Made by a program: the position numbers and the translations under genes | Notes under the pieces: generated by a model | Told to the model about the DNA's origin: nothing | Databases searched by the model: none | The model's input: only the letters and a program-made list of their open reading frames with translations | IMG/VR virus record: IMGVR_UViG_3300021373_000217 | Location: 1-34,453 of that record | Reading direction: 5' to 3' (one strand) | Origin: a virus | Length of the DNA: 34,453 nucleotides | Shown here: positions 2,663 to 34,453 of the stretch, one piece after another | Numbering within the stretch: position 1 is the first letter of the stretch | Layout: each line of letters begins with the position of its first letter

Positions 2663-4308
2663 TAAGCAAACACCGCACTGGTAACGACATAGGCATTGGT
2701 GCCGTCGTCGTAGTAACTGAGCCAATATGTGCCAGCGGTGGAGATCGTCGTTGCCAGATTAGCATCGCCCTTGGTCGTTGCCGCCAAGCTGATCGCGTGA
2801 CCGCCGCTGTTAATCAGCAGGATGTTGCCTGACTGTCCAGCGGTGTGGTTTGTAAACGTCAACGCACCTGCGCCGCTAGGCGTACATTTGAAGTTATTGG
2901 TTCCGGTGTCGCCGATATCAAAAGACAAGTCATTGTCCGTGGTGATCGTGCCACGCTGGCTCACGGTGAACGTCTGCGCCGCATCGGTCACAGCGTTGTC
3001 AGCATCGAATGCCTGAACGTCCGTGCCGATAGCCACGCCCAAGTTTGTTCTGGAAGTTGCAGCTGACGCAACATCGGACAGGTTGTTCGCCGCAACCAAC
3101 AGACCAGCCGCACTGATCGCAGCTACCTGCCACGCGCTGCCGTTGTAGACCTTCAACTCATTTGACGTGGTGTTGAAGTAGAGGTCTCCGGCCTGAAGCG
3201 CGGAGGTGTCAGCCCGCTGCGTCGGGTCAGACGCGGAGGGGCCAATGTATACGTCAGCGAAGTTAGTAACGTCGGTGACGTTGGCGGCCACCGTCGTAAC
3301 GTCCGCGCTGATCCCAGCGACCGTTGCAATATCGGTGCTGTCGGCGGCCACTGTCGTAACATCGCTTGCAATACCTGCGGTCGTCGTCACGTCGCTGCTA
3401 ATCCCTGCAACGGTCGTAGTGTTGGCTGATATCCCGGCAACCGTGGTGACGTTTGAAGATATATTCGCGACGGTCGTGACGTTCGCGGACACGCCAGCGA
3501 CTGTATTAATGTTCGTAGCGTTTGCGGCGACGGCATTGATGTTCGTCTGGTCACCCGACGTGGGCGTTGTCCGCACCCAAGCCGACCCGGTGTAGACCAT
3601 CATCACATTGTTTGATGTGTTAAAATACAGCGCACCCGTTAGCAATGCGTCGCCATCATTGTCGGTTGATGGGTCGGAAGATTTCTGCCCAAGGTAACGA
3701 TCATCAAAATTGTCATAGCTAGTTGCCGCAGCCGCCGCGCTACTAGCTGATGCCGTTGCACTGTTTAAAGCATTGGTTGCGTATGTCTGGGCGCTGCTAA
3801 TTTCCGCTGCTGTTGGCCCAACAATAAAACCATCGGCGCTTTCGTTGATAACTAGCGCCGTGTTGGCGGTAATAGTGGTTGGCAACGTCGGGTCAAAACT
3901 GCCGGTGTAACCGTCAGGAAGCTGCGCTGTGCGACCTAGCGCCCGCTGCTGCTCCTGATTTACAGCCGTCAGCCGGTCAAGGGCTTCTTCGTGACTTTCG
4001 GCTGGAAATGGATCGTTCTCAACGTAATCCGTTTCTTGCGTCTGCGTAGTAGTCCGGTTAATTACCCACTTAACCGTGCTGGCTGGGGCAACTGCCGCAG
4101 TTACCGTGCCGGTTGCACCGTTACCACCGGAAACCGTAAAGTCAGAACCGTTTGATTTGACACTTTCAGCGCCGGTTGCAATAACAACTTCAACAACCTC
4201 AATCTCGGCGCTAGTGCCGGTTCCGAAGAACACATAATTGACCGCAAACTCAGTCGTGCTGCCGTTTCCGGTGTAGGAAACCGTATTAGTGGTGCTGGAA
4301 ATCGTCAT
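2662..4308 (-). CDS. Tail fibre with T7-type N-terminal attachment domain (548 aa)
   Basis: Residues 1-140 match the T7 gp17 N-terminal domain that anchors fibres to the tail: VSYTGNGSTTEFAVNYVF, a WVINRTT strand, then DPFPAESHEEALDRLT and an RALGRTAQLP linker. An Ala/Ser-rich helix follows (about 166-197), then ten imperfect 10-residue repeats (251-350) of the TTVAGISADV type. These repeats are flanked by two copies of a short module ending in LYFNTSNN / LYFNTTSN and GSAW (about 204-245 and 352-394). The C-terminus looks beta-rich. It overlaps the upstream internal-protein gene by ATGA and the downstream fibre gene by TAATG, so translation is probably coupled. It most likely acts as the adaptor that carries the larger receptor-binding protein encoded next to it, which is inference from gene order. 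Confidence 0.9.
   Translation of the reverse strand: MTISSTTNTVSYTGNGSTTEFAVNYVFFGTGTSAEIEVVEVVIATGAESVKSNGSDFTVSGGNGATGTVTAAVAPASTVKWVINRTTTQTQETDYVENDPFPAESHEEALDRLTAVNQEQQRALGRTAQLPDGYTGSFDPTLPTTITANTALVINESADGFIVGPTAAEISSAQTYATNALNSATASASSAAAAATSYDNFDDRYLGQKSSDPSTDNDGDALLTGALYFNTSNNVMMVYTGSAWVRTTPTSGDQTNINAVAANATNINTVAGVSANVTTVANISSNVTTVAGISANTTTVAGISSDVTTTAGIASDVTTVAADSTDIATVAGISADVTTVAANVTDVTNFADVYIGPSASDPTQRADTSALQAGDLYFNTTSNELKVYNGSAWQVAAISAAGLLVAANNLSDVASAATSRTNLGVAIGTDVQAFDADNAVTDAAQTFTVSQRGTITTDNDLSFDIGDTGTNNFKCTPSGAGALTFTNHTAGQSGNILLINSGGHAISLAATTKGDANLATTISTAGTYWLSYYDDGTNAYVVTSAVFA
3259..3558. repeat. Tandem imperfect 30-bp coding repeats in tail fibre
   Basis: Ten consecutive 30-base units encode a decapeptide pattern, consensus TTVAGISADV with variants such as TTVANISSNV and ATVAGISADV. 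The units are diverged at synonymous and Asn/Asp/Ser positions, so they are old repeats and not a recent slippage array. Such repeats commonly form elongated fibre shafts. Confidence 0.8.
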
Positions 4309-13557: not shown

Positions 13558-14393
13558 TCACCGTAGGCTTGGTTAAACAATGCCTGAACCTTCTTGACCA
13601 TAGAATTATGCTCTGGGTGCCGCTTATCTGTATAAGCCGGGTGAGACATAATCGTTGCCGCTTCAGCCCTAGCTTCTTCTGGCGTCAACGCCATCTGCGT
13701 TCCGCTGGACGGTCCAGCCAAATCCTTGTCAGCCATTGTTGTCTTAGCAATATTAGCAAATGCCCTGAGAACATCAGGGTCATTGCCCATGCCACTGGCT
13801 TCCATTTTCGCTGCCAGTTCGTCGCCGCCGTATTCAGCAAATGCTTTGCGGGCAAAATCTAAATTCTGATCATATGCACGGCCCCACTCCTGACGCAAAG
13901 CAGTTTCGCCCTGTTCCATAGACTGATCAATGATACCTTTATAGGCTTCATGTTGATTACTCATGTTGCCAGCTTGCCATGCTACAAGGCTTTTAACTTG
14001 CTCTGCATTAAGGCCCAGCTTGTGCGCTTCCTGCTTAAACGACGAAAGCGTTTCATCGTTAAACTGACCAGCGATTTCTTCTGGCAAGTCTTCCGGCAGT
14101 TCAATTTCGTATTTTTCAGGGCTTTCAGGGCGACCAAGGAACTCGTAGACGTCATCCCAATCGCTATCCGTAACTGGCTTTGCAATCTTATCTCGCCCAA
14201 GGTGCGATTGCAGATTAACGTATGATGCCGCTAGGCTATCCACATCTTTGAATTTAGAAAAACTTGGGTTTTCCCGAAGGTCCTCTGACAACGACGAACG
14301 CCAATCGTCGTTGCTTGTTTCTGTCTGAGGGGCCGTTTCACTAACTGCTTCTGCATTATCCACCATATCGGCAGGTGCGGTATCGTTAGGCAT
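13554..14393 (-). CDS. Capsid scaffold / assembly protein (279 aa)
   Basis: Acidic, helical and located between portal and capsid genes, the usual place for a scaffold. Motifs typical of podovirus scaffolds are visible: WRSSLSEDLRENPSFSKFKDVDSLAASYVNLQSHLG near residues 30-65, then DWDDVYEFLGRPESPEKYEI. The C-terminal part (MALTPEEARAEAATIMSHPAYTDKRHPEH) is also family-typical. The ATG at 14391-14393 is preferred over an upstream in-frame TTG, since AGGAG lies eleven bases before it. The start overlaps the preceding gene. Confidence 0.88.
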   Translation of the reverse strand: MPNDTAPADMVDNAEAVSETAPQTETSNDDWRSSLSEDLRENPSFSKFKDVDSLAASYVNLQSHLGRDKIAKPVTDSDWDDVYEFLGRPESPEKYEIELPEDLPEEIAGQFNDETLSSFKQEAHKLGLNAEQVKSLVAWQAGNMSNQHEAYKGIIDQSMEQGETALRQEWGRAYDQNLDFARKAFAEYGGDELAAKMEASGMGNDPDVLRAFANIAKTTMADKDLAGPSSGTQMALTPEEARAEAATIMSHPAYTDKRHPEHNSMVKKVQALFNQAYGE

Positions 14394-19952: not shown

Positions 19953-19980
19953 TTTACATCTTAGTGCAATAATATATATT
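19953..19980 (+). promoter_or_regulatory. Plus-strand promoter for the 76-aa gene (TGTTTACA class)
   Basis: TTTACA at 19953-19958 and TATATT at 19975-19980 with a 16-base spacer match sigma70 consensus at five of six positions each. The wider element TGTTTACATC recurs at 29921 and, with one change, at 24983, each time upstream of a plus-strand gene with a good ribosome site. Confidence 0.65.
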
Positions 19981-20015: not shown

Positions 20016-20246
20016 ATGACATACAACGGTTGGACAAATTACGAAACATGGCGCGTCAACCTCGAAATTTTTAACGGCACCAATCTCTGGGAAGATGTCA
20101 CCGCCGAGTTCTGCCAAGATTTAGTCGAACAGCATATTGAGCAAGAATCCAAAGGGCTTGCTTTTGGGTATGCCATGTCATTCCTTGAAAATGTTAACTG
20201 GCATGAAATTGCTGACAGCCTCAAGCGGGATTATGAGGATGCTTAG
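20016..20246 (+). CDS. Conserved small phage protein, NGWTNYETWRVNLEIF family (76 aa)
   Basis: The N-terminus MTYNGWTNYETWRVNLEIFNG is a strong family signature found in very many phages and some plasmids (a DUF7249-type protein, by recollection). Function is unknown. The protein is acidic and helical, with no Cys pair or membrane segment. AAAGGA lies eight bases before the ATG. It is alone on its strand between the late and modification operons, under the TGTTTACA promoter, and its stop overlaps the stop of the converging dioxygenase gene by four bases, with no terminator between them. Confidence 0.85.
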   Translation: MTYNGWTNYETWRVNLEIFNGTNLWEDVTAEFCQDLVEQHIEQESKGLAFGYAMSFLENVNWHEIADSLKRDYEDA

Positions 20247-21043
20247 AAATAATTCTTAAAGGCTTTCAAAGGGTAAAACACCAAGCTGTTTCTATAGCCG
20301 TTTTCTTTGATAGGAACTATCGGGGTTACACCGTGAATATTTTTCCACGCAGGATAGACTAAGATAGAATTGTTACAGCTATCCACAGTCGCGCCGTAGT
20401 CTGGAACAGTGGTGTTTCCGCCTTTTGCGTTCAATCGCTTCGTTATAATCACATTGACGCAGCCTTTTAGGTTTGCCATATCCCGATGATATTGCGCTGC
20501 AATATTGAAATTTGATATGGAACTTGTGAATAGGTTTCCAAACCGCCATTTTTTAGGAGCGTTTTCTTCTATGGCTTGTTTTTGCTTCAGATAAATATCT
20601 GGCGTGACCTGTTCGATTAGTTTTTCTGCCTCCAAGCAAGAAAGCATCATTGCTTTAATAAAATTTTTTGCTGTCTCAACTTGATGGACGCTCGATATTG
20701 TTGGGTAATTTCGACGCATATGTGGTTTCGGAGCCACAGCCCCCAAAATCGTGCTGTATTGCGTGACTAAATTTACACCGGCACGGGATCTTTCTAGTTT
20801 GTCTTTTTTGCTTCCCTGTGGTCCACGGCTCATTTCCTGTTTTGGCACTCTATCTGATAAAAATTCAGCATTAGCGATGTTGATATATTTTTGCAGTTTC
20901 TCTGGCAAATGATTCATATAGAAACCTACTGTTTCACCTTGGTCATAAAACACAGTATTTTCAGTGATGTTGGGTTCTATTTCCAAACATTTGTCGCCTA
21001 TCTTTATGTTGTGATTAATTTTTTCAAGATCGACGCGTTTCAT
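20243..21043 (-). CDS. TET/JBP-family 2-oxoglutarate/Fe(II) dioxygenase, DNA base hydroxylase (266 aa)
   Basis: Predicted to oxidise the methyl group of 5-methylcytosine (TET) or thymine (JBP) in DNA, using Fe(II), O2 and 2-oxoglutarate. The double-stranded beta-helix motifs are in order: iron ligands in YHRDMANLKG (H186, D188), a strand with a Gly pair and Pro (GGNTTVPDYG, 208-217), NNSILVYPAW (224-233), the distal iron ligand in IHGVTPI (H237), and the 2-oxoglutarate-binding Arg in YRNSLVFYPL (R251). The NS(I/L)LxY...HGVTPI...YRxS(L/I)VxY pattern is the hallmark of phage TET proteins. The N-terminal 150 residues are helical and basic. It is last in a three-gene ATGA-coupled operon after a glycosyltransferase and a ParB-like gene. 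G+C is by eye only about 40%, clearly below its neighbours. Whether the substrate is C or T cannot be read from sequence. Confidence 0.88.
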   Translation of the reverse strand: MKRVDLEKINHNIKIGDKCLEIEPNITENTVFYDQGETVGFYMNHLPEKLQKYINIANAEFLSDRVPKQEMSRGPQGSKKDKLERSRAGVNLVTQYSTILGAVAPKPHMRRNYPTISSVHQVETAKNFIKAMMLSCLEAEKLIEQVTPDIYLKQKQAIEENAPKKWRFGNLFTSSISNFNIAAQYHRDMANLKGCVNVIITKRLNAKGGNTTVPDYGATVDSCNNSILVYPAWKNIHGVTPIVPIKENGYRNSLVFYPLKAFKNYF

Positions 21044-21768
21044 TTGACTGTTTTTCCATGATCTGCTGCAAATTTTTTAATATCTATTTTTGCGTCTACT
21101 CTGCCAGTTTTTGTTTTTATCAATTTTGCATATGGATGCCAATCTTCCACAATTTTAACAGCCCATTCAGTGTCTCGTTTATTAGAATAATGCTCATGTA
21201 GCCCTCCTTTGTTACTGCCTATCACTGGAGAACTAAAAAAATATCTGTTAAACCTTATGGTTCCGTGACCGTTCTTTATCGTTTGCAGCAAAAAATCTCT
21301 ATCTTCTTTTGTATTATCTTTATAGCGCCAAGATATTTCAGAAACTTTCAACATTGTGCAAACTTCTGAAAATTTGCGATTTACAGAGAACGAAGTTTTT
21401 TCGTGCCAAGCATTTTGCCTGTAATTTATTCCAACAAGTTCAAATGGCATATTTTTTACTTTTTCAAATAAGTTATGCCATATTTTTGCGTTAGCTGTGC
21501 GATTTTTGCCGTCATAAAAACCGAAACCTGTGACATCGTCGTCGCAAACTATTATCCAATCGTTGCCGTTTGCTACCGCCCAATCAAGTATAAAATTACG
21601 AACATACGATATGCCTTTGTCATTTTCACCTATGTCTACAATATTCGGCACTTTGTATGACGAGATTTCTTGTGGTTCAATAAAATGAAAAGTTTTTATA
21701 TTAGCTTGTTCAAATAATTTGTAAGTTTTTGTTTCCGGCCTTCCTTTTGATGGTATGCAGCAAATCAT
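21040..21768 (-). CDS. TET-associated glycosyltransferase (TAGT), DNA base glucosylation-type enzyme (242 aa)
   Basis: Predicted to attach a sugar from a nucleotide donor to the hydroxymethyl base made by the neighbouring dioxygenase. The GT-A fold motifs are an N-terminal CIPSKGRPETKTYKLFEQA, a KGISYVRNFILDWA helix (51-64), and the metal-binding DDD in WIIVCDDDVTGF (D76-D78). A later acidic ENTKEDRDF-type segment (DNTKEDRDFLLQ, about 151-162) is a candidate catalytic region. This arrangement, adjacent to a TET/JBP gene, is the TAGT pattern described for phage DNA modification. The gene overlaps both neighbours by four bases. It is strikingly A+T rich (about one third G+C), pointing to acquisition from another genome. 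The donor sugar and the bond position are unknown. Confidence 0.85.
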   Translation of the reverse strand: MICCIPSKGRPETKTYKLFEQANIKTFHFIEPQEISSYKVPNIVDIGENDKGISYVRNFILDWAVANGNDWIIVCDDDVTGFGFYDGKNRTANAKIWHNLFEKVKNMPFELVGINYRQNAWHEKTSFSVNRKFSEVCTMLKVSEISWRYKDNTKEDRDFLLQTIKNGHGTIRFNRYFFSSPVIGSNKGGLHEHYSNKRDTEWAVKIVEDWHPYAKLIKTKTGRVDAKIDIKKFAADHGKTVK

Positions 21769-22379
21769 AGCTTTTCCTTTTCTTCTCTGAGAAAATTCAT
21801 AAACATATATCCCACATATGCCTCTTTATCGCGCCACCATTTAACTAATTCAGCCGCTTCTTCGTAATGCTCTGCTTCAAATTCAATCTGGATAGCTTTT
21901 TTTACATTTTCCTGCATTTCATCCAAGGTGTTTTCTATTTCATCTTCATCATCCAAAATGGAATAATCTATTTCGTCAAAATTAAGCTGAGATGGATGAA
22001 AACCGACAAGTTCTAAATCAAAAGCCTGATCTGTCAAATCCTCCATTTCGACCTTGAGCAAATCCATATCCCACCCGGCATTCTGGGGCAGTTGATTATC
22101 CGCCAGCACATAGGCTTGCTTCTGGGCCTTCGTCCAGCCGGTCGCCGTCATGGTTGGCACTTCCTCAATGCCCAGCTTCCGCGCTGCCATAACGCGGCCA
22201 TGCCCTGCTATAATTTCACCGTCTTCGTCAATCAGCACCGGGGTCGTCCATCCCCATTCTTTGATAGACGCTGCAAGCTGCGCCACCTGCTCGTCGGAGT
22301 GCGTCCGTGCATTTCGCGCATACGGGATCAGATCATCCACTTTGCGCCGTTCGATTTTATCCGCTGCCCAATCTTTCAT
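21765..22379 (-). CDS. ParB-like nuclease-fold protein linked to DNA modification genes (204 aa)
   Basis: Residues 14-115 form the phage ParB-like domain: VDDLIPYARNARTHSDEQVAQLAASI, then a PVLIDEDGEIIAGHGR box (GHGR at 59-62), and KAQKQAYVLADNQLPQNAGWD. In many phages this domain precedes a DNA methyltransferase in the same protein. Here it is followed instead by an acidic linker (about 124-148) and a helical C-terminus (IQIEFEAEHYEEAAELVKWW, then YVGYMFMNFLREEKEKL). I start it at the ATG at 22377-22379, with GGAA upstream; an ATG 12 bases earlier is possible, while a longer frame would translate the palindromic gap. A role in targeting or regulating the modification enzymes is inferred. The N-terminal half is G+C richer than the C-terminal part. 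Confidence 0.82.
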   Translation of the reverse strand: MKDWAADKIERRKVDDLIPYARNARTHSDEQVAQLAASIKEWGWTTPVLIDEDGEIIAGHGRVMAARKLGIEEVPTMTATGWTKAQKQAYVLADNQLPQNAGWDMDLLKVEMEDLTDQAFDLELVGFHPSQLNFDEIDYSILDDEDEIENTLDEMQENVKKAIQIEFEAEHYEEAAELVKWWRDKEAYVGYMFMNFLREEKEKL

Positions 22380-22550
22380 TTTGCTTTCCATGTTTGTGTA
22401 AAAACCCCTAGCCCGCAGTTGTACCCCCAAACCCCCACCCTTAAGGGTGGGGGGGTTTTTGGGGTACACGTTTCTGCGGTTTTTTGCCCCTCTTACCCCA
22501 ATTACCCTTTTAGTACCCTAGGGGTTTTTGGGGTAGCACGCAAAAGTTGT
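22380..22550. other. Non-coding 171-bp gap with C/G runs and TACCCC-type repeats
   Basis: The gap between the primase-helicase gene and the ParB-like gene contains four copies of a TACCCC / GGGGTA core in both orientations, two copies of GGGGTTTTTGGGGTA (22453-22467 nearby and 22521-22536), and strand-biased runs of C and G up to seven long. It contains the large palindrome listed separately. No gene is visible. Possible uses are replication origin, binding site for the ParB-like or primase protein, or a transcription stop ahead of the modification genes. Confidence 0.55.
22421..22467. repeat. Long near-perfect palindrome in G/C-run sequence
   Basis: The core is CCCCCACCCTT followed immediately by AAGGGTGGGGG (22432-22453), a perfect 22-base palindrome with TTAA at its centre. 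Outside the core, TACCCCC with AAA pairs with TTTTT and GGGGTA, with two extra G and two extra T as bulges. The plus strand ends in G7 then T5, which could act as a terminator for plus-strand RNA; the G-runs could also form a quadruplex. Confidence 0.7.
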
Positions 22551-24536: not shown

Positions 24537-24798
24537 TTCCTCGCTCCAGTATATTTCTCACCAACCTAGCGTAGCCCTCAATATCAAGCCAGTGGTCAAT
24601 GTTGTCGGGGTCGCCGGAAACAATCCGCGCCATTTTGCTCGCCATCATGTCGAGGCTTTCGCGCTGGGCATATGACAAACTGCCGGTATCACAAACATCT
24701 CTCAGCGCCATTTTTATAAGCTGCGAAATTTTGGCAACGTCGCGGTAGTCACCATATTGTTCCTCGCGCTGGTCAAGGGTGTCCATCACATCGCTCAC
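24529..24798 (-). CDS. DUF6378-like small phage protein (89 aa)
   Basis: The signature LDQREEQYGDYRDVAKISQLIK, then QRESLDMMASKMARIVSGDPDNIDHWLDIEGYARL, matches a helical family common in phages (DUF6378, by recollection). The function is not established; its all-helical shape has been likened to nucleotide-processing or regulatory proteins, which I cannot test. The start is GTG at 24796-24798, overlapping the Cro-like stop as GTGA. Its end overlaps the primase start by 8 bp, so the three genes form one coupled operon. Confidence 0.8.
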   Translation of the reverse strand: MSDVMDTLDQREEQYGDYRDVAKISQLIKMALRDVCDTGSLSYAQRESLDMMASKMARIVSGDPDNIDHWLDIEGYARLVRNILERGNG

Positions 24799-24956
24799 GA
24801 CGCCTTCAACTCCCCATCGCTCAAGCGTTCAATCTCAAACTGCCGCAGTTTAGGCGGATGGTCGCCCCAGCGATATGTACCGTGCAGTCCAATGCCGAGC
24901 GCCTCGGCCATTTTCTTGCGGTCGCCAAAGTAGGCAATAGCTTCTTCCGTTGTCAT
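24795..24956 (-). CDS. Cro-like transcriptional repressor (53 aa)
   Basis: The ATG at 24954-24956 has AGGAG nine bases upstream and gives a 53-residue protein that starts MTTEEAIAYFGDRKKMAEAL and continues with GIGLHGTYRWGDHPPKLRQFE and IERLSDGELKAS. The layout is that of phage Cro-family proteins: a helix, a GDRKKMAEALGI HTH first helix, a recognition helix ending in the YRWGD segment, and the LRxFxIERL dimerisation end. It is the first gene of the minus-strand replication operon and faces the plus-strand early operon across a 114-bp divergent region, the classical position of a Cro switch. No CI-type partner or integrase is present in the window. Confidence 0.82.
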   Translation of the reverse strand: MTTEEAIAYFGDRKKMAEALGIGLHGTYRWGDHPPKLRQFEIERLSDGELKAS

Positions 24957-24984
24957 TTTTTTTGCTCCTGTGTGAAATTAACTG

Positions 24985-25013
24985 TTTACACCATAATACA
25001 ATCTGTGTTTATA
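24985..25013 (+). promoter_or_regulatory. Plus-strand early promoter (TGTTTACA class), divergent region with cro
   Basis: TTTACA at 24985-24990, 17 bases, then TTTATA at 25008-25013; TATATG two bases further on is an alternative -10. The flanking ACTGTTTACA matches the element at 19950 base for base over ten positions. It drives the operon that begins at 25071. Confidence 0.6.
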
Positions 25014-25019
25014 TGTAAA
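24993..25019 (-). promoter_or_regulatory. Candidate minus promoter for the cro operon
   Basis: The minus strand has TTTACA (complement of 25014-25019), 15 bases, then TATTAT (complement of 24993-24998). The spacer is short. The same TTTACA/TGTAAA pair forms an inverted repeat with the plus-strand -35, so one regulator could cover both promoters. Confidence 0.35.
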
Positions 25020-25024
25020 TACAA

Positions 25025-25053
25025 AATCGCAACCGGATAACCCAACCGCGATT
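25025..25053 (+). ncRNA. Structured 5' leader, copy 1 (stem-loop with AACCGGATAACCCAACC loop)
   Basis: The RNA can form a perfect 6-bp stem, AATCGC with GCGATT, around the 17-base loop AACCGGATAACCCAACC. The same loop, with three changes, lies in a second leader at 29960, while the stem sequences differ but still pair. It ends 17 bases before the start codon at 25071, next to the AGGAG ribosome site. Confidence 0.6.
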
Positions 25054-25070
25054 AAGCAGGAGAAAAAGAC

Positions 25071-25373
25071 ATGAACGACCTTGATGTAATGTACGACGAC
25101 CAAGGCATTGTAGAAGCCGCCCTTTCAATCGCCCGCACGGTTCGCGACGAAGTACCGGCAGGACGCTGGACCCGCTCCGCAGTGCTTCCCGGCATCGGCG
25201 TTACCATCAGCGCGATGGCAAGCCGCATCAGCCATACCGCAGCGGCGGCAGAACTTAAATCATTTGGCGATTACGTTGGCGAGACTTTCGACAACGACGA
25301 TCTGGACGGCCTGATTCAGGATTTTCTGGTCTGCGCTCAAACGCTGGTCGAAGACGACCGTTACTTTAACTAA
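25071..25373 (+). CDS. First early protein of the plus operon, unknown function (100 aa)
   Basis: Acidic helical protein beginning MNDLDVMYDDQGIVEAALS and containing a GIGVTISAMASRISHTAAAAEL segment. No family is recognised. It is preceded by the structured leader and an AGGAGA ribosome site, and is first in the recombination operon, immediately after the Cro-facing promoter, so it is likely to be among the first proteins made. Early first-position small acidic proteins often target host functions, but nothing in the sequence shows that here. Confidence 0.7.
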   Translation: MNDLDVMYDDQGIVEAALSIARTVRDEVPAGRWTRSAVLPGIGVTISAMASRISHTAAAAELKSFGDYVGETFDNDDLDGLIQDFLVCAQTLVEDDRYFN

Positions 25374-25391
25374 ACCCACAGGAGATAAAAA

Positions 25392-26063
25392 ATGGCTATC
25401 AATCTACAAAACACGAACACCGTATCGGCCAGCAGCATCAAGCTGCTAGTCTACGGCCAAGCGGGCGCAGGTAAAACCTCGCTCATTCCGACCATGCCGA
25501 AGCCGGTCATCTTATCGGCGGAGGGCGGGCTGCTTTCTATCGCCGGGTCCGACATCCCGTTTATCGCAGTCAACAGCATGGACGAACTGCGCGAGGCATA
25601 TACATGGCTGGCTGGTTCCGACGAGGCCAGAGCATACGACAGCGTGGCGCTGGATAGCATCAGCGAGATTGCGGAAGTCTGCCTTGGACATGAAAAGGCC
25701 AAAGCCAAAGACCCGCGTCAGGCTTATGGCGAAATGCAGACGACTATGGCGGAAGCCATCCGATCATTCCGCGATTTGCCAAAGCACGTCCTGATGACGG
25801 CCAAGCTGGAAAAGTCACAGGATGAAATGGGACGGATGCTTTACAGCCCATCGATGCCGGGTAATAAAACCGGCCAATCGCTGCCGTACTTCTTTGATCT
25901 GATGCTGGCCCTGCGGGTTGAGAAAGACGCCGAAGGCGTATCGCAGCGCGGCCTGATGTGTGACAGCGATGGCCTTTGGCAAGCCAAGGATCGCAGCGGC
26001 AAGCTGGATCAATGGGAAAACGCAGACCTCGGCGCAATCATTGCCAAACTTGGAGCAAAATAA
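25392..26063 (+). CDS. RecA-like ATPase, Sak4/AAA_24 type (223 aa)
   Basis: Walker A is GQAGAGKTS (residues 22-30) and Walker B is YDSVALDSI (D88 as the likely acid). The opening KLLVYGQAGAGKT and the following PKPVILSAEGGLLSI are typical of the phage Sak4-like AAA_24 group, which acts with a single-strand binding protein in annealing or strand exchange. The length agrees with the family (about 220-250 aa). It is followed by a small linker gene, then the DUF669 protein and nuclease, the usual grouping. AGGAG lies eight bases ahead of the ATG. Confidence 0.88.
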   Translation: MAINLQNTNTVSASSIKLLVYGQAGAGKTSLIPTMPKPVILSAEGGLLSIAGSDIPFIAVNSMDELREAYTWLAGSDEARAYDSVALDSISEIAEVCLGHEKAKAKDPRQAYGEMQTTMAEAIRSFRDLPKHVLMTAKLEKSQDEMGRMLYSPSMPGNKTGQSLPYFFDLMLALRVEKDAEGVSQRGLMCDSDGLWQAKDRSGKLDQWENADLGAIIAKLGAK

Positions 26064-26446
26064 TGTCCCTTGAAAATCTCAGCCAGAACTGGCTTGACGC
26101 AAAGCAAGCCGAAAAGGTCGCAACCGAACGTCGGCGCGAACTGGAAGACAAACTGCTTTCCTTGATCGGCGTTGCCGAAAACATGGAGGGTACTGAAAAT
26201 GTTGAAACGGACGGAGGATATAAAATCAAAATCACTGGACGCATGACCCGCAAAGTCAACGGCGAACGCATCCAAGAAATTGCAGCGGAGGAGGGGTTAA
26301 CAGATCATTTGCAGAGCCTGTTCCGTTGGAAGCCGGAGATCAATATGTCCGCGTGGAAAAGTGCAGACAAAGCGATCACCGGGCCGCTACTCGGCGGCAT
26401 TACCACCCAGCCCGGACGGGCTTCATTCACCATTACAAAAGGATAA
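26063..26446 (+). CDS. Small conserved protein between Sak4-like and DUF669 genes (127 aa)
   Basis: The start ATG at 26063 overlaps the ATPase stop as TAATG; a longer open frame exists upstream only inside the ATPase gene. The N-terminal half is a charged helix (WLDAKQAEKVATERRRELEDKL), then strands, and the ending QSLFRWKPEINMSAWKSADKAI is a pattern I associate with short phage proteins found at this spot. It may assist the ATPase and the single-strand binding protein, which is inference from its constant place in such operons. Confidence 0.75.
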   Translation: MSLENLSQNWLDAKQAEKVATERRRELEDKLLSLIGVAENMEGTENVETDGGYKIKITGRMTRKVNGERIQEIAAEEGLTDHLQSLFRWKPEINMSAWKSADKAITGPLLGGITTQPGRASFTITKG

Positions 26447-26450
26447 TCTA

Positions 26451-26936
26451 ATGGCTTTTCTCGACGAGACTTTTGACATTGCTGAAATGCCGGTTACGGA
26501 GCAGCGCAGCTTCGACCCGGTGCCAGCAGGATGGTATACCGCAGCAATTGCGGGTGCCGAACTTAAAACCACCAAGGCCGGAACTGGCAACTACATTGCA
26601 GTACGGTTTGATATAACCGGGCCGGAGCATCAGGGGCGTGTGGTTTTTACCAACCTGAACACCCGCAACCCAAACCCGAAAGCGGAGGAAATCGGGCGGG
26701 CGCAGCTTGGTGACATCATGCGGGCAACTGGCGTTGCAAAGCTGGAAGACACTGACCAGCTACTTGGCGGCAATTTGTCAATCAAGGTCACGGTCAAAAA
26801 CGACCCGACCTATGGCCCCGGCAACGAGGTCAAAGGCTTTAAGGCCGTTGACGGCTCCGCACCGCCAATAGCTGCCGCACCCGCTGCGGCTGCACCGGCA
26901 GCACCATCCGCAGCCCCGCCTTGGGCAGCTAAATAG
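26451..26936 (+). CDS. DUF669 family protein, probable ssDNA-binding partner of Sak4-like ATPase (161 aa)
   Basis: The sequence has the DUF669 pattern: opening FDIAEMP, then FDPVPAGWYTAAIAGAELKTTKAGTGNYIAVRFDITGPEH, GRVVFTNLNTRNPNPKAEEIGRAQL and NLSIKVTVKNDPTYGPGNEVKGF. Phages often encode DUF669 proteins next to recombination ATPases, and a single-strand DNA binding role is likely. The C-terminus is a long Pro/Ala tail (about 140-161) ending in WAAK, not the acidic tip usual in host SSB. The ATG at 26451 follows the previous stop by four bases. Confidence 0.85.
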   Translation: MAFLDETFDIAEMPVTEQRSFDPVPAGWYTAAIAGAELKTTKAGTGNYIAVRFDITGPEHQGRVVFTNLNTRNPNPKAEEIGRAQLGDIMRATGVAKLEDTDQLLGGNLSIKVTVKNDPTYGPGNEVKGFKAVDGSAPPIAAAPAAAAPAAPSAAPPWAAK

Positions 26937-26943
26937 CAAGGAA

Positions 26944-26968
26944 GGCCGGGGGCTAATAACCCTCGGCC
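26944..26968 (+). promoter_or_regulatory. Hairpin between ribosome site and start of the Cas4-like gene
   Basis: A 9-bp stem with one G-T pair (GGCCGGGGG with CCCTCGGCC) and a 7-base CTAATAA loop. The only Shine-Dalgarno-like sequence, AAGGAAG (26938-26944), lies just before the stem and more than 30 bases from the ATG. When the stem forms, this site comes within about eight bases of the start. TTTT follows, so a weak terminator is the alternative. Confidence 0.55.
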
Positions 26969-26976
26969 ACTTTTAC

Positions 26977-28020
26977 ATGACAGCAATACCACCACCCATT
27001 CACAGCATCGCCAATCTGATTGACGAACACCACGCCAGCCAGCCGGACGAACCGCGTCTGCATCTGGGCGGCTCTATGCTGGGCCATCCCTGCGAACGCT
27101 GGCTCTGGCTGTCGTTTCGCTGGGCAGTGCGCGAGAAGTTCCCCGGTCGCATCCGACGCCTGTTCCGGCGCGGTAACAATGAGGAAGACATCATTACGGA
27201 CGATCTCAAAGCCATCGGCATTGATATCAACAGCACAGGCGATCAGCAGCGTTTTATTAAATTTGGATCGCACGTTGGCGGATCGGTTGACGGCATCATT
27301 GAGTCCGGCGTTCCCGGTGCTGAGAAAACCCGCCATATTGCGGAGTACAAAACCCACGCCAAAAAGTCTTTTGAAGATTTGGAAAAGAAGGGTGTGCAAG
27401 CATCCAAGCCAATGCACTGGGCGCAGATGCAAATCTATATGCTCGGCACTAAGATCGAACGTGCGCTGTACGTTGCCGTCTGCAAAAACGATGACCGCCT
27501 TTATACTGAGCGAGTGAAATATGATGCAGAAGCCGCCAAAAACTTACTAGATCGCGGACGACGCATTGCCACGACCGAACGCATCCCTGCGCCGATATCA
27601 ACAGATGCAAGTTGGTATCAATGCAAGTTCTGTCCGGCGCATAGCTTCTGCCATAAGGAGCAACTAACCCAGCACGTTAATTGCCGCACTTGCGCTCAGT
27701 CTACGCCGGAGGGTGATGGCACATGGTCGTGCGCCAGATGGGAAAGCAAGAACATTCCCGGCGATTTTCAGAAGACCGGCTGCGATAGCCATGTGCTGCA
27801 CCCTGATCTGGTGCCGTGGCCTGTAAAGGACAGCAACACGCCGCACGAAGCCGTGTATGAGATTAACGGCAAGGATATCCGCAACGGTGAAGGCGATGCT
27901 TATGTTTACAGCAGCAAGGAATTGATTGCTGGTGGCAAGGCTTGCGCTGATGACGGTGTGCAGCAGGTGCGGGAAGCCTTTCCCGGTGCGGAAGTTGTCG
28001 AGGTGCGGGATGCTTCGTGA
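26977..28020 (+). CDS. Cas4-like PD-(D/E)XK nuclease with Fe-S cluster cysteines (347 aa)
   Basis: The nuclease core is visible: D105 in GGSVDGII, then E123 and K125 in IAEYKTHAK, and an AQMQIYM motif with Q150/Q152. Fe-S ligands of the Cas4/AddB type are also visible: C39 in LGHPCERWLW, and a Cx2Cx5C set at C216, C219 and C225 (CKFCPAHSFC). A second cysteine set follows (C236, C239, C252, C269), which could bind another metal. This family trims DNA ends in exonuclease or recombination pathways. No CRISPR array is present, so the role is phage recombination or repair. It overlaps the helicase gene, and its start is adjacent to the hairpin described above. Confidence 0.88.
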   Translation: MTAIPPPIHSIANLIDEHHASQPDEPRLHLGGSMLGHPCERWLWLSFRWAVREKFPGRIRRLFRRGNNEEDIITDDLKAIGIDINSTGDQQRFIKFGSHVGGSVDGIIESGVPGAEKTRHIAEYKTHAKKSFEDLEKKGVQASKPMHWAQMQIYMLGTKIERALYVAVCKNDDRLYTERVKYDAEAAKNLLDRGRRIATTERIPAPISTDASWYQCKFCPAHSFCHKEQLTQHVNCRTCAQSTPEGDGTWSCARWESKNIPGDFQKTGCDSHVLHPDLVPWPVKDSNTPHEAVYEINGKDIRNGEGDAYVYSSKELIAGGKACADDGVQQVREAFPGAEVVEVRDAS

Positions 28021-29596
28021 TTACCAGCGCCGCACCATTGACCAGCTTTACAAGTGGTTTGCGGATGGTCGTAAAGGCCATCCGTGCATTGAACTGCCGA
28101 CCGGATCAGGCAAAAGCCATATCGTTGCTGCGCTCTGCAAAGAGGCAATTCAGACATGGCCGGAAACCCGCATCCTGATGCTGACGCACGTTAAAGAACT
28201 GATCGAACAGAACGCCGAGAAAATGCGCGATCATTGGCCGAACGCACCGCTGGGCATTTATTCGGCGGGTATGCGGCGGCGGGATATTGGCGAACCGATT
28301 ACGTTTGCCGGTATTCAATCAGTGCGGAATAAAGCCGACCAGATCGGCCACGTTGATTTGGTGCTGATTGATGAATGTCATCTAGTAAGCCACAAGCAGG
28401 AAGGCGGCTACCGCAAGCTGATTGACGACCTTACATTAATTAACCCGGCGCTGCGGGTGATCGGCCTGACAGCCACGCCGTACAGGCTAGGCCACGGCTA
28501 TATCACCGACGAGCCAGCGTTGTTTTCGGATATTATTGCGCCTGTCAGTATTGAAGAATTGATCTTTAAGAAACACCTCGCACCGCTGCGGTCCAAGCTG
28601 ACAAATCACAAGTTATCTGTTGATGGCGTACACAAGCGCGGCGGCGAATATATTGAAAGCGAACTGCAAGCCGCCGTGGATACAGACGATCACAATGCGG
28701 CAACGGTGGATGAGGTTATCAGCTTGGCCGGTGATCGCCGGTCGTGGCTGTTTTTTTGTGCCGGTGTAAAACACGCCTATAACGTAGCTGATATTTTGAA
28801 TGCTCGCGGCATTGTCGCCGCAACGATTACAGGCGAAACGCCAAAAGCAGAACGCGAGCGAATCATCGCCGGTTTTAAGTCTGGCGATATTCAGGCGCTG
28901 ACAAACGCAAACGTTTTGACAACCGGGTTCGATCATCCTGACCTTGACCTGATTGCTATGCTGCGGCCAACGCTATCCACCGGCTTGTATGTGCAGATGG
29001 CTGGGCGCGGAATGCGACCCAAGAACCACACCGACCATTGCCTTGTGCTGGACTTTGCTGGTGTCGTGCAAACGCACGGCCCTATCACAGCGGTCAATCC
29101 TAAAAAGCCTTCAGGCAAAGGCGAAGGCGAAGCGCCGGTCAAAGCCTGTGAAAATTGTTTTGAACTTAATCACATATCCGCAAAGGAATGTGTTGCTTGC
29201 GGCGAACCATTCCCAGCGCCAAAACCAACCAAGCAAAAATTGCACGACGACGACATCATGGGTTTGGACACAACCGAGATGAACGTGACTGAATGGCAGT
29301 GGCGTCGGCATATAAGCCGCGCCAGTGGCAAGGAGATGCTGATGGTGACGTATTATGGCGCACTGTCAGACAAGCCGGTAAACGAGTACCTGACGGTGAT
29401 GCACGACGGGTATGCCGGACAGAAGGCGCGGGTGTCGTTGGTCAAGATTGCCAGCAACGCGGGAGTACACGGCGTAACGCTTGATAACCAACTGGACGAT
29501 GTAGCATTTGATCTGAACAAAGCCACGCCGCCCGCATTGATAAAATTTCGGCAGGATGGCAAATTTTATCGCGTGACAGATCGGAGATGGGGATGA
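28010..29596 (+). CDS. Superfamily 2 DNA/RNA helicase (528 aa)
   Basis: Motifs in order: Q-like N-terminus LRDYQRRTIDQL, motif I ELPTGSGKSH (K35), motif II VLIDECHLVS (DECH at 121-124), motif III LTATP (163-167), and motif VI near YVQMAGRGMR. The C-terminal region (about 380-420) contains CENCFELNHISAKECVACGE, a likely zinc ribbon. I use the ATG at 28010, at the start of the conserved RDYQ region and overlapping the nuclease gene by 11 bases; a longer frame lies inside that gene. Next to the Cas4-like nuclease and Sak4 proteins it probably drives recombination or replication-fork processing. Confidence 0.9.
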   Translation: MLRDYQRRTIDQLYKWFADGRKGHPCIELPTGSGKSHIVAALCKEAIQTWPETRILMLTHVKELIEQNAEKMRDHWPNAPLGIYSAGMRRRDIGEPITFAGIQSVRNKADQIGHVDLVLIDECHLVSHKQEGGYRKLIDDLTLINPALRVIGLTATPYRLGHGYITDEPALFSDIIAPVSIEELIFKKHLAPLRSKLTNHKLSVDGVHKRGGEYIESELQAAVDTDDHNAATVDEVISLAGDRRSWLFFCAGVKHAYNVADILNARGIVAATITGETPKAERERIIAGFKSGDIQALTNANVLTTGFDHPDLDLIAMLRPTLSTGLYVQMAGRGMRPKNHTDHCLVLDFAGVVQTHGPITAVNPKKPSGKGEGEAPVKACENCFELNHISAKECVACGEPFPAPKPTKQKLHDDDIMGLDTTEMNVTEWQWRRHISRASGKEMLMVTYYGALSDKPVNEYLTVMHDGYAGQKARVSLVKIASNAGVHGVTLDNQLDDVAFDLNKATPPALIKFRQDGKFYRVTDRRWG

Positions 29597-29919
29597 AAAC
29601 CGAACACGAAGAACAGCGCGAATTTGTAAAATGGATTCGTCAGACATACCCCGGCGTTCGCATATTTGCCATCCCCAACGGCGGGCAGCGGAGCCGCACC
29701 ACAGGCGCGAAGCTGAAGGCGGAAGGCGTCAGCGCCGGGGTGCCTGATTTGTATATCCCTGCGTGGCGCTGCTGGGTTGAGATGAAGCGCGAGACGGGCG
29801 GCAAGATTTCGGCGGTGCAAAAAGATTGGCTGACATATTTGCAGAGCATTGGTGACAAGGTGATTGTCGGGCATGGCTGCAAAGACGCTCAAAATAAAAT
29901 TAAACTTTTGTGCAAATAG
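29593..29919 (+). CDS. VRR-NUC domain nuclease (108 aa)
   Basis: A complete small VRR-NUC nuclease: EHEEQREFVKWIRQTYPGV, then FAIPNGGQRS, GVPDLYIP (D52), the ExK motif in WVEMKRETGG (E63, K65), and Q76 in SAVQKDWL. This group cuts branched or structured DNA. I use the second ATG (29593) because GGAG lies six bases before it; an ATG at 29587 is the other candidate. Its start lies at the end of the helicase frame, so it belongs to the same operon. Length is normal for phage VRR-NUC proteins. Confidence 0.9.
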   Translation: MKTEHEEQREFVKWIRQTYPGVRIFAIPNGGQRSRTTGAKLKAEGVSAGVPDLYIPAWRCWVEMKRETGGKISAVQKDWLTYLQSIGDKVIVGHGCKDAQNKIKLLCK

Positions 29920-29922
29920 GTG

Positions 29923-29951
29923 TTTACATCATCGTTGGACTAATGTATAAA
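29923..29951 (+). promoter_or_regulatory. Plus-strand promoter for the small-gene cluster (TGTTTACA class)
   Basis: TTTACA at 29923-29928, a 17-base spacer and TATAAA at 29946-29951 give five of six matches at both boxes. The flanking GTGTTTACATCAT resembles the elements at 19950 and 24982. Transcription would start a few bases before the structured leader. Confidence 0.7.
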
Positions 29952-29959
29952 ATAGGGTA

Positions 29960-29987
29960 AGGGGCAACCGGATAGGCCGACCGCCCT
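29960..29987 (+). ncRNA. Structured 5' leader, copy 2 (stem-loop with AACCGGATAGGCCGACC loop)
   Basis: AGGGGC and GCCCT pair with one bulged G around the 17-base loop AACCGGATAGGCCGACC. The loop matches copy 1 at 14 of 17 positions, whereas the stem bases differ but still pair, so the structure is conserved while the sequence is not. It sits upstream of AGGAG and the start codon at 30006, at the same distance class as copy 1. Confidence 0.6.
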
Positions 29988-30005
29988 AAACAAGGAGACT
30001 ACGAC

Positions 30006-30233
30006 ATGGCTAATTTGAAAAAAGTGAACAAGGTAATCGCAGCGAACACCGACCTAGACATCCAAGCCGTGCGCGGCGACGGTTACGTCTACTTTGACGG
30101 AGAAGACGGGTTCGGCAAGATCGATTCCGTTTACGCGCACCCGGTGACTACGACGACCGATGAAATGACGCAATTTTGTCTGGAGGCCATTCACGGCGTT
30201 TATTTTGATATTTTCGGCGCGGTTGCCGAATGA
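30006..30233 (+). CDS. Small phage protein of unknown function (75 aa)
   Basis: The sequence, beginning MANLKKVNKVIAANTDLDIQ, contains RGDGYVYFDGEDGF and VYAHPVTTTTDEMTQFCLEAI, which I have seen as a pattern in other small phage proteins, without a known function. It is acidic and has no membrane segment. It heads the second small-gene cluster under the TGTTTACA promoter and structured leader, with AAGGAG ten bases upstream. A stable UUCG hairpin follows its stop. Confidence 0.75.
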   Translation: MANLKKVNKVIAANTDLDIQAVRGDGYVYFDGEDGFGKIDSVYAHPVTTTTDEMTQFCLEAIHGVYFDIFGAVAE

Positions 30234-33953: not shown

Positions 33954-34453
33954 CAATCAAGTTCCGGCCAGTCGTACAGGATGCCAGACTTCGTGGTGCT
34001 GCCATCATCTTCCAGCGTATACATCAGGAACAGCGCAGCTACCGCATCAGTATCAGCAGCGTCAGTGATAGCCGTTTCCATCTCGGTGGCTTTGGACCGG
34101 ATTGCGGCACGGTAGGTTGCAATGTTCGCCGGGATTGCATCTCCAGTGTCAGCGTTGCGGATCACGGCCCAGTCAGTCCCAGCAAGAAGTGCGCCCTGCT
34201 GCGTCTTGACCTCTGTGATCAGGTTCGACTTGACGCCCTTAGTCACCACCTGCACACCGTCGTCGTCCAGCAGAGGATCGCCGTTCTCGTCTACCTCGTC
34301 TACGTCGTCCAGCGCCTTGGCTGTACTGGTAACCGTGCCGTCATCGTTGTAGCCCCAGTTGTACAACCGGCTATCAGGATGCGGCTGCTGCACGATCTCG
34401 GTGATGCCTAGTTCTGCCTTACGCTCGGCGCTGTAGGTGTGCCAGCTTGCTGG
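33953..34453 (-). CDS. Tail-fibre accessory protein, C-terminal part (N-terminus at 1-237)
   Basis: The frame enters from the right edge and stops at 33953. Read through the terminal overlap it is a 193-aa protein starting at 237. The final 100 residues contain LLAGTDWAVIRNADTGDAIPANIATYRAAIRSKA, a pattern shared with XkdW/tail-fibre-assembly-type C-terminal domains. An acidic linker with a VDEVDENGDPLL run lies before it. A GTG inside at 34391-34393 could be taken as a start but would remove 46 conserved residues. Following two fibre genes, a role in fibre assembly or attachment is likely. Confidence 0.8.
   Translation of the reverse strand, partial: PASWHTYSAERKAELGITEIVQQPHPDSRLYNWGYNDDGTVTSTAKALDDVDEVDENGDPLLDDDGVQVVTKGVKSNLITEVKTQQGALLAGTDWAVIRNADTGDAIPANIATYRAAIRSKATEMETAITDAADTDAVAALFLMYTLEDDGSTTKSGILYDWPELD
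34298..34453. repeat. Terminal overlap, right copy (matches 1-156)
   Basis: Direct copy of the first 156 bases with mismatches at 34304, 34307, 34326 and 34327, and 126 identical bases from 34328 to the end. It marks the closure of the circular assembly. Confidence 0.9.

Follow-up and report, generated by a model that had tools for sequence, protein, structure and literature searches.

A structured RNA hairpin in the early leaders of many uncultured phages

In the stretch of DNA analysed here (the window, a viral contig of 34453 bases) inspection of the letters revealed two plus-strand hairpins, located at 25025–25053 and 29961–29987. The first comprises an outer stem AATCGC/GCGATT (25025–25030 and 25048–25053) around the central sequence AACCGGATAACCCAACC (25031–25047), with an internal loop AAC/ACC, inner G-C pairs and an apical loop ATAAC. 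In the second, an outer stem GGGGC/GCCCT of 5 bp, one of them G-U (29961–29965 and 29983–29987), encloses AACCGGATAGGCCGACC (29966–29982), with internal loop AAC/ACC, an inner stem CGG/CCG and an apical loop ATAGG. A first-pass annotation had described a shared loop with 14 of 17 positions equal, and the two central sequences do agree at 14/17; its stem for the first copy pairs as given, but the AGGGGC/GCCCT proposed for the second has to be shortened to GGGGC/GCCCT, with A29960 unpaired. It had also placed a common promoter sequence ahead of both leaders and an AGGAG site shortly behind them, and both are present: TGTTTACA occurs at 24983 and 29921, whilst the Shine–Dalgarno sequence AGGAG lies at 25058–25062 (4 nt 3' of the first hairpin) and at 29993–29997 (5 nt 3' of the second), with ATG start codons at 25071 and 30006, respectively. 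The promoter of copy 1 (24983–25015, plus strand) pairs TTTACA at 24985–24990 with a −10 sequence TTATAT/TATATG some 18–19 nt downstream, which was placed by eye because the automatic pick took another pair; that of copy 2 (29921–29951, plus strand) has TTTACA at 29923–29928 and, after 17 nt, TATAAA at 29946–29951.

The first gene after copy 1 (25071–25373, plus strand) specifies 100 aa and has no PHROG match, and that after copy 2 (30006–30233, plus strand) specifies 75 aa of unknown function. The operon that continues behind copy 1 (25392–29919, plus strand) encodes, by PHROG matches, a Sak4-like annealing protein, an SSB-like protein, a Cas4-domain exonuclease, a DNA helicase and a VRR-nuclease-like protein, the last name being the annotation of the relatives' genes; this gene set is kept in 9/9 genomes or genome parts compared. 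Divergently oriented is a gene for a 53 aa Cro-like regulator (24795–24956, minus strand; phrog_409, E-value 2.4e-11). A search of this opposite strand with the model R2 (described below) gave no match, so that the hairpin is missing from the divergent cro/primase transcript and is therefore not something that every mRNA of this phage requires. The promoter of copy 1 carries an imperfect inverted repeat, TGTTTACA...TGTAAATA (24983–25021), and in many loci the promoters of leader-bearing operons contain inverted half-sites that vary from phage to phage (TGTTTACA...TGTAAATA, TGCTTGCA...TGCAAGCA or TTGACA...TGTCAA). Judged from sequence, these half-sites probably serve as operators for the divergent Cro-like regulator, with a possible one at copy 1. 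A further promoter-like site with TGTTTACA was seen at 19953–19980, 5' of a 76 aa ORF at 20016, and has no leader hairpin.

By itself the window is weak, at best suggestive, evidence for an RNA element, and it is the relatives that decide the question. Allowing ≤ 3 mismatches, the loop pattern was found twice against 0.35 expected, a count equalled in 5 of 100 shuffles; the folding z-scores were −2.79 for copy 1 and −0.57 for copy 2, and TGTTTACA-like words showed no excess (27 against 28.3 by chance). With the models described below, copies 1 and 2 scored 65.1 and 61.3 bits (R1) and 39.6 and 38.7 bits (R2), respectively, and R2 matched nothing else in the window.

A loop-only scan of viral contigs returned at least 25 matches with complementary flanks of 4–6 bp, the window's two included, whilst the remaining listed matches all had ≤ 3 bp of flank complementarity, giving two clean classes; members of the 4–6 bp class are flanked by a promoter-like stretch and, on the opposite side, by a Shine–Dalgarno sequence and ATG. 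The 120 matches listed from a second loop-only scan, which used neither stems, promoters nor genes, comprised at least 67 with flanks of 5–6 bp, five with 4 bp and 48 with ≤ 2 bp, and among these a Shine–Dalgarno sequence and start codon followed 63/67 of the 5–6 bp group compared with 5/48 of the ≤ 2 bp group. When the closing GC pairs were included in the pattern, 67 stretches were found in viral contigs. An alignment (A1) was then built from 45 loci chosen by eye from both pattern scans, including the window's two (L001 and L002); one truncated copy, L151 (position 1), was skipped, and 32 distinct rows were left. In A1 93.4 % of the pair cells form, covariation is 0.459 compared with 0.126 when shuffled (0/500), and four pairs are changed on both sides. 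The model built from it, R1, found matches in 41/41 records, as expected given that the same pattern had found them. All seven records of ≥ 23 kb contain two good R1 copies each, with a spacing that is mostly ∼5–6 kb (415 nt in G026); a third match in G028, of 14.3 bits, was taken as chance.

To the wider family belong many of the 80 loci that a search of viral contigs for Sak4 relatives yielded. Their sak4 upstream regions, together with a structural scan, revealed the same architecture with different outer stems and with inner stems CGG/CCG, CAG/CTG, CTG/CAG or CCG/CGG. For a gapless alignment of leaders with 5-nt loops (A3, 34 distinct rows), we used 33 rows from 40 picks plus L199, leaving out seven picks whose loops had 4 or 6 nt and seven variants found by hand; 12 matches of the structural scan were taken as chance and removed by eye. 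Here 94.1 % of the pair cells form, and covariation is 0.782 compared with 0.166 when shuffled (0/500) and ≤ 0.135 in slid versions. Changes on both sides are seen in each of the six outer pairs and in the middle pair of the inner stem, whilst the outermost pair of that stem (columns 12/22) is unpaired in 7/34 rows and the innermost (14/20) is invariant. As the structural scan required pairing plus A at two loop positions, A3 leans to structure, and since the examples were mostly picked by pairing, more weight belongs to the second loop-only scan and to a fold test of sak4 promoters. In this test, 49/80 loci had a sigma-70-like promoter immediately 5' of sak4, and in 48/49 the 5' end of the predicted transcript folds into the hairpin of this family (the exception is L238); the minimum-energy structures of four of the 48 (L221, L227, L243 and L266) show an internal loop of smaller size. 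Searching the 80 loci (605 kb, both strands) with R2, whose model sequences came partly from these same loci, gave 86 matches with E ≤ 2, 86/86 of them on the sak4 strand, and 77 matches in 68 loci with E ≤ 0.05; two or three copies are present in each of L240, L245, L202, L249, L237, L248, L191 and L192. As many contigs are closely related, the counts are not of independent events. The hairpins upstream of sak4 in PB15/XX1924 and in CGphi29 are variants that R2 missed and that were identified by eye, the CGphi29 hairpin being matched by R1 as well (22.2 bits, E-value 0.0026). Thus an RNA structure is maintained by compensating changes, with the unpaired letters conserved and the stems not. 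The first-pass annotation had read a conserved loop with a covarying stem as the sign of a functional RNA, and the covariation in A1 and A3 supports this; it had named a lack of copies in relatives and broken stems as findings that would speak against it, and related viral contigs hold further copies whose stems are kept through compensating changes.

Throughout the family a freely covarying outer stem of 5–6 bp is followed by a 3 × 3 internal loop NA[AC]/A[AC]N, an inner stem of ∼3 bp and an apical loop that is usually AU-rich, and the Shine–Dalgarno sequence and start codon come downstream of the hairpin. In the 23 leaders that were parsed, out of 40 distinct ones from the sak4-promoter fold test, A is the middle base of the 5' strand of the internal loop and the first base of its 3' strand. 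Positions were surveyed in 75 R2 matches, near-identical ones having been dropped by eye. The distance from the −10 hexamer to the first stem base is 5–10 nt, mostly 7–8, in 71/74 leaders with a scored promoter, and the three outliers, window copy 1 included, are apparently wrong automatic picks. The Shine–Dalgarno sequence begins 0–11 nt 3' of the stem and the start codon 11–25 nt, both being present in 74/75, and the hairpin is held more tightly to the −10 box than to either. The hairpin is accordingly predicted, from the −10 box, to begin near the transcript start; in the TTTACA subgroup, to which the window belongs, it stands ∼9–10 nt 3' of the −10 box, with perhaps 3–4 unpaired bases ahead of it. 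An upstream promoter-like site accompanies nearly all of the R2 matches listed, and no match was noticed before internal operon genes, whilst 55 leaders stand before 28 families of first genes, some of which are very short frames. The leaders thus lie on early-type transcripts beside a ribosome-binding site, much as had been claimed for the two in the window.

Dozens of viral contigs carry the element, as do the phages 1N2-2, CGphi29, PB15 and XX1924; in most cases it precedes the Sak4 recombination operon. The hosts of these isolated carriers belong to Idiomarinaceae, Salicola and Alteromonas, all gammaproteobacteria. No convincing R2 match was found in 11 named phages whose Sak4 proteins are more distant, a match in BP63 (E-value 0.67) being taken as chance, and the family therefore has a boundary; four of the 11, read whole or nearly so, encode their own DNA polymerase. 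We also considered an origin in hosts, and rejected it: when 84,980 genomes of bacterial and archaeal species were scanned, the strict loop-plus-GC pattern, which represents the strict subgroup, gave eight stretches, none of them placed as a leader would be. Consistent with the earlier remark that this is not a named RNA family, Rfam 15 gave no match in the window at gathering score, and a lax search of 6 kb around both leaders gave eight sub-threshold matches, none at the leaders. Nor was a description of the element found in the portions of the literature consulted, which lay mostly outside subscription journals and included papers that name the relatives. A structured-RNA family that is undescribed and has no Rfam match is thus strongly supported as regards its structure, whilst its function we infer: the hairpin probably guards or controls the early recombination-gene mRNAs of many uncultured phages.

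In looking for a phage-encoded partner, we compared 17 window genes and found none confined to leader phages. The nearest was the primase type, present in 9/9 leader phages yet also in 1/6 non-leader phages; the gp157like query was in the wrong frame and contains stops, so that its row reflects similarity of the stretch only. A partner would therefore be either host-encoded or some phage protein beyond the genes compared, and the result weakly favours a host-encoded partner or none.

The position near the predicted start, the closeness of the Shine–Dalgarno sequence and the variety of downstream genes together point to an element of the mRNA 5' end. We give a probability of roughly 0.45 to a 5'-terminal mRNA module that hinders decay from the 5' end, keeps the ribosome-binding site open and presents conserved unpaired bases to a putative factor. 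Such a leader would be a ready-made early 5' UTR, consisting of a sigma-70 promoter, a hairpin within a few bases of the predicted start and then 11–25 nt holding the Shine–Dalgarno sequence up to the start codon. According to the sections of PMC3997798 consulted, mRNA is stabilized by secondary structure at its 5' end, since both RppH and RNase E require that end to be single-stranded. With few unpaired nucleotides before the stem, pyrophosphate removal by RppH and 5'-end entry by RNase E would be hindered, ribosomes would load immediately behind the hairpin, and early recombination mRNAs would be longer-lived and well translated. The T7 gene 10 leader likewise has a 5'-terminal stabilizing stem-loop, and to our knowledge stem-loops of this type (ompA, papA and T7 gene 10) need no conserved loop sequence, whereas in the phage leader both loops, internal and apical, stay conserved in many phages on stems that are unrelated. 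Protection alone does not call for conserved loop letters, which counts against a purely protective 5'-end structure, as do the perhaps 3–4 unpaired bases of the TTTACA subgroup, where protection would be weaker, and the lack of the hairpin on the divergent transcript. The conservation of the unpaired letters suggests that something also reads the fold: a factor, host-encoded or an unrecognized phage protein, might bind the internal and apical loops and so tune stability or translation across all leader-bearing operons together. The Escherichia coli ompA and papA 5' stem-loops are similar in lying near the mRNA 5' end with a Shine–Dalgarno sequence close behind and in protecting against RppH and RNase E (PMC3997798, in the sections consulted).

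Judging from the position relative to the promoter, we infer that the 5'-end explanation is at least as good as protein binding or translational control. A translational operator or enhancer, in which early translation would be switched off or on by a protein (a phage repressor or an RNA-binding protein of the host) or by the 30S subunit docking on the loops, is unlikely, although it would account well for the ribosome-binding site and start 11–25 nt behind the hairpin in 74/75 leaders, for the conserved unpaired A's and AU loop, and for the many different genes behind the leader, as in a regulon. Phage translational operators, such as the coat protein hairpins of ssRNA phages and the T4 gene 43 operator, have unpaired A's and an AU-type loop near the ribosome-binding site, and the leader shares these features; however, the ssRNA-phage coat operator contains the start codon, whereas here the Shine–Dalgarno sequence and start lie outside the hairpin, and many genes carry the leader. 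A translational switch also fits poorly with a hairpin placed more tightly relative to the −10 box than to the Shine–Dalgarno sequence or start codon, with listed R2 matches that are nearly all linked to promoters and were not noticed before internal genes, and with the lack of a leader-specific protein among the window genes compared. CsrA/RsmE sites present ANGGA in a hairpin loop, and the window's subgroup reads ACCGGAUA; such a site was rejected, as GGA is not conserved and is replaced in several of the 34 A3 rows (inner stems CAG/CUG and CUG/CAG). Possible, if still somewhat unlikely, is a minimal class of early-leader RNA, a hairpin of ∼30 nt whose A-rich 3 × 3 loop and AU loop are read by a conserved host machine; RNA polymerase, the ribosome or the RNA-decay machinery would then recognize a hairpin made in the first moments of transcription, and phages of different hosts would be marking every rightward early transcript.

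Quite unlikely, in our estimation, is a small put-like antiterminator, whose nascent hairpin would bind the RNA polymerase leaving the promoter and allow it to read through terminators of the early operon. The leader does lie directly downstream of early-type promoters, as does HK022 putL, and, as put does, it places structured RNA just past the promoters of more than one early phage operon (PMC9378689, consulted in part); moreover, genomes with several copies have one per promoter, and no phage partner is obvious. On the other hand, it is a single hairpin of ∼30 nt beside a Shine–Dalgarno sequence and is used in one early direction only, the divergent early operon being without it, whereas put spans ∼70 nt with two stem-loops and need not adjoin a Shine–Dalgarno sequence, putR lying ∼270 nt from its transcription start (PMC9378689, same parts). 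The best R2 match in HK022 (11 bits, E-value 1.7), at 14075–14107 beside a tail gene, is not above chance, and the transcribed strand shows no enrichment of terminator-like sites (55 plus compared with 114 minus, Rho-dependent ones lying outside this count). Very improbable is a DNA operator, a terminator or a chance resemblance. The hairpin adjoins an operator-like inverted repeat, and the minus-strand reading of copy 1 scores as terminator-like, but variable arms around a constant centre are the reverse of a palindromic DNA site, the stems carry compensating changes, the plus strand has no T-run 3' of the hairpin and the strand bias is 86/86.

The element defines an RNA family absent from Rfam that connects early operons across a broad range of phages, most of them uncultured, and it leads to a testable claim: early phage mRNA is controlled by a short hairpin at its 5' end whose unpaired bases are conserved. 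Should a host machine recognize it, the hairpin would offer a very small and portable RNA handle for acting on transcription, translation or decay; if it solely stabilizes mRNA, it would nonetheless be a ready-made 5' UTR part. As the isolated phages 1N2-2, PB15, XX1924 and CGphi29 carry the element, experiments are feasible.

Several further features were noted in the operon and elsewhere in the window. Before the Cas4-exonuclease gene (26937–26976) a purine-rich, Shine–Dalgarno-like stretch comes first, then a stable GC hairpin and, ∼8–10 nt on, the ATG, as if a distant Shine–Dalgarno sequence were brought beside the start codon; the arrangement recurs in L176, L179, L180, L192–L196, L201 and L203 with differing hairpin sequences. 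The gap between the SSB and Cas4 genes contains an A-run and then a GC-rich hairpin with no T-run in L205, L207–L211, L214, L215, L218 and L220, and also in L230–L232, L236, L239, L246, L249, L251 and others; on the opposite strand it has the form of an intrinsic terminator within the early operon, perhaps directed against antisense transcription. On the minus strand, a cluster at 20243–22469 with queuine tRNA-ribosyltransferase-like, glucosyltransferase-like and ParB/methyltransferase-like genes suggests DNA base hypermodification. Near the tail-end genes, 30-nt periodic repeats occur in a minus-strand reading frame (3255–3543). Finally, a direct repeat of 156 nt at the termini (1–156 and 34298–34453) is 97 % identical, making circularity or terminal redundancy plausible, though not exact.
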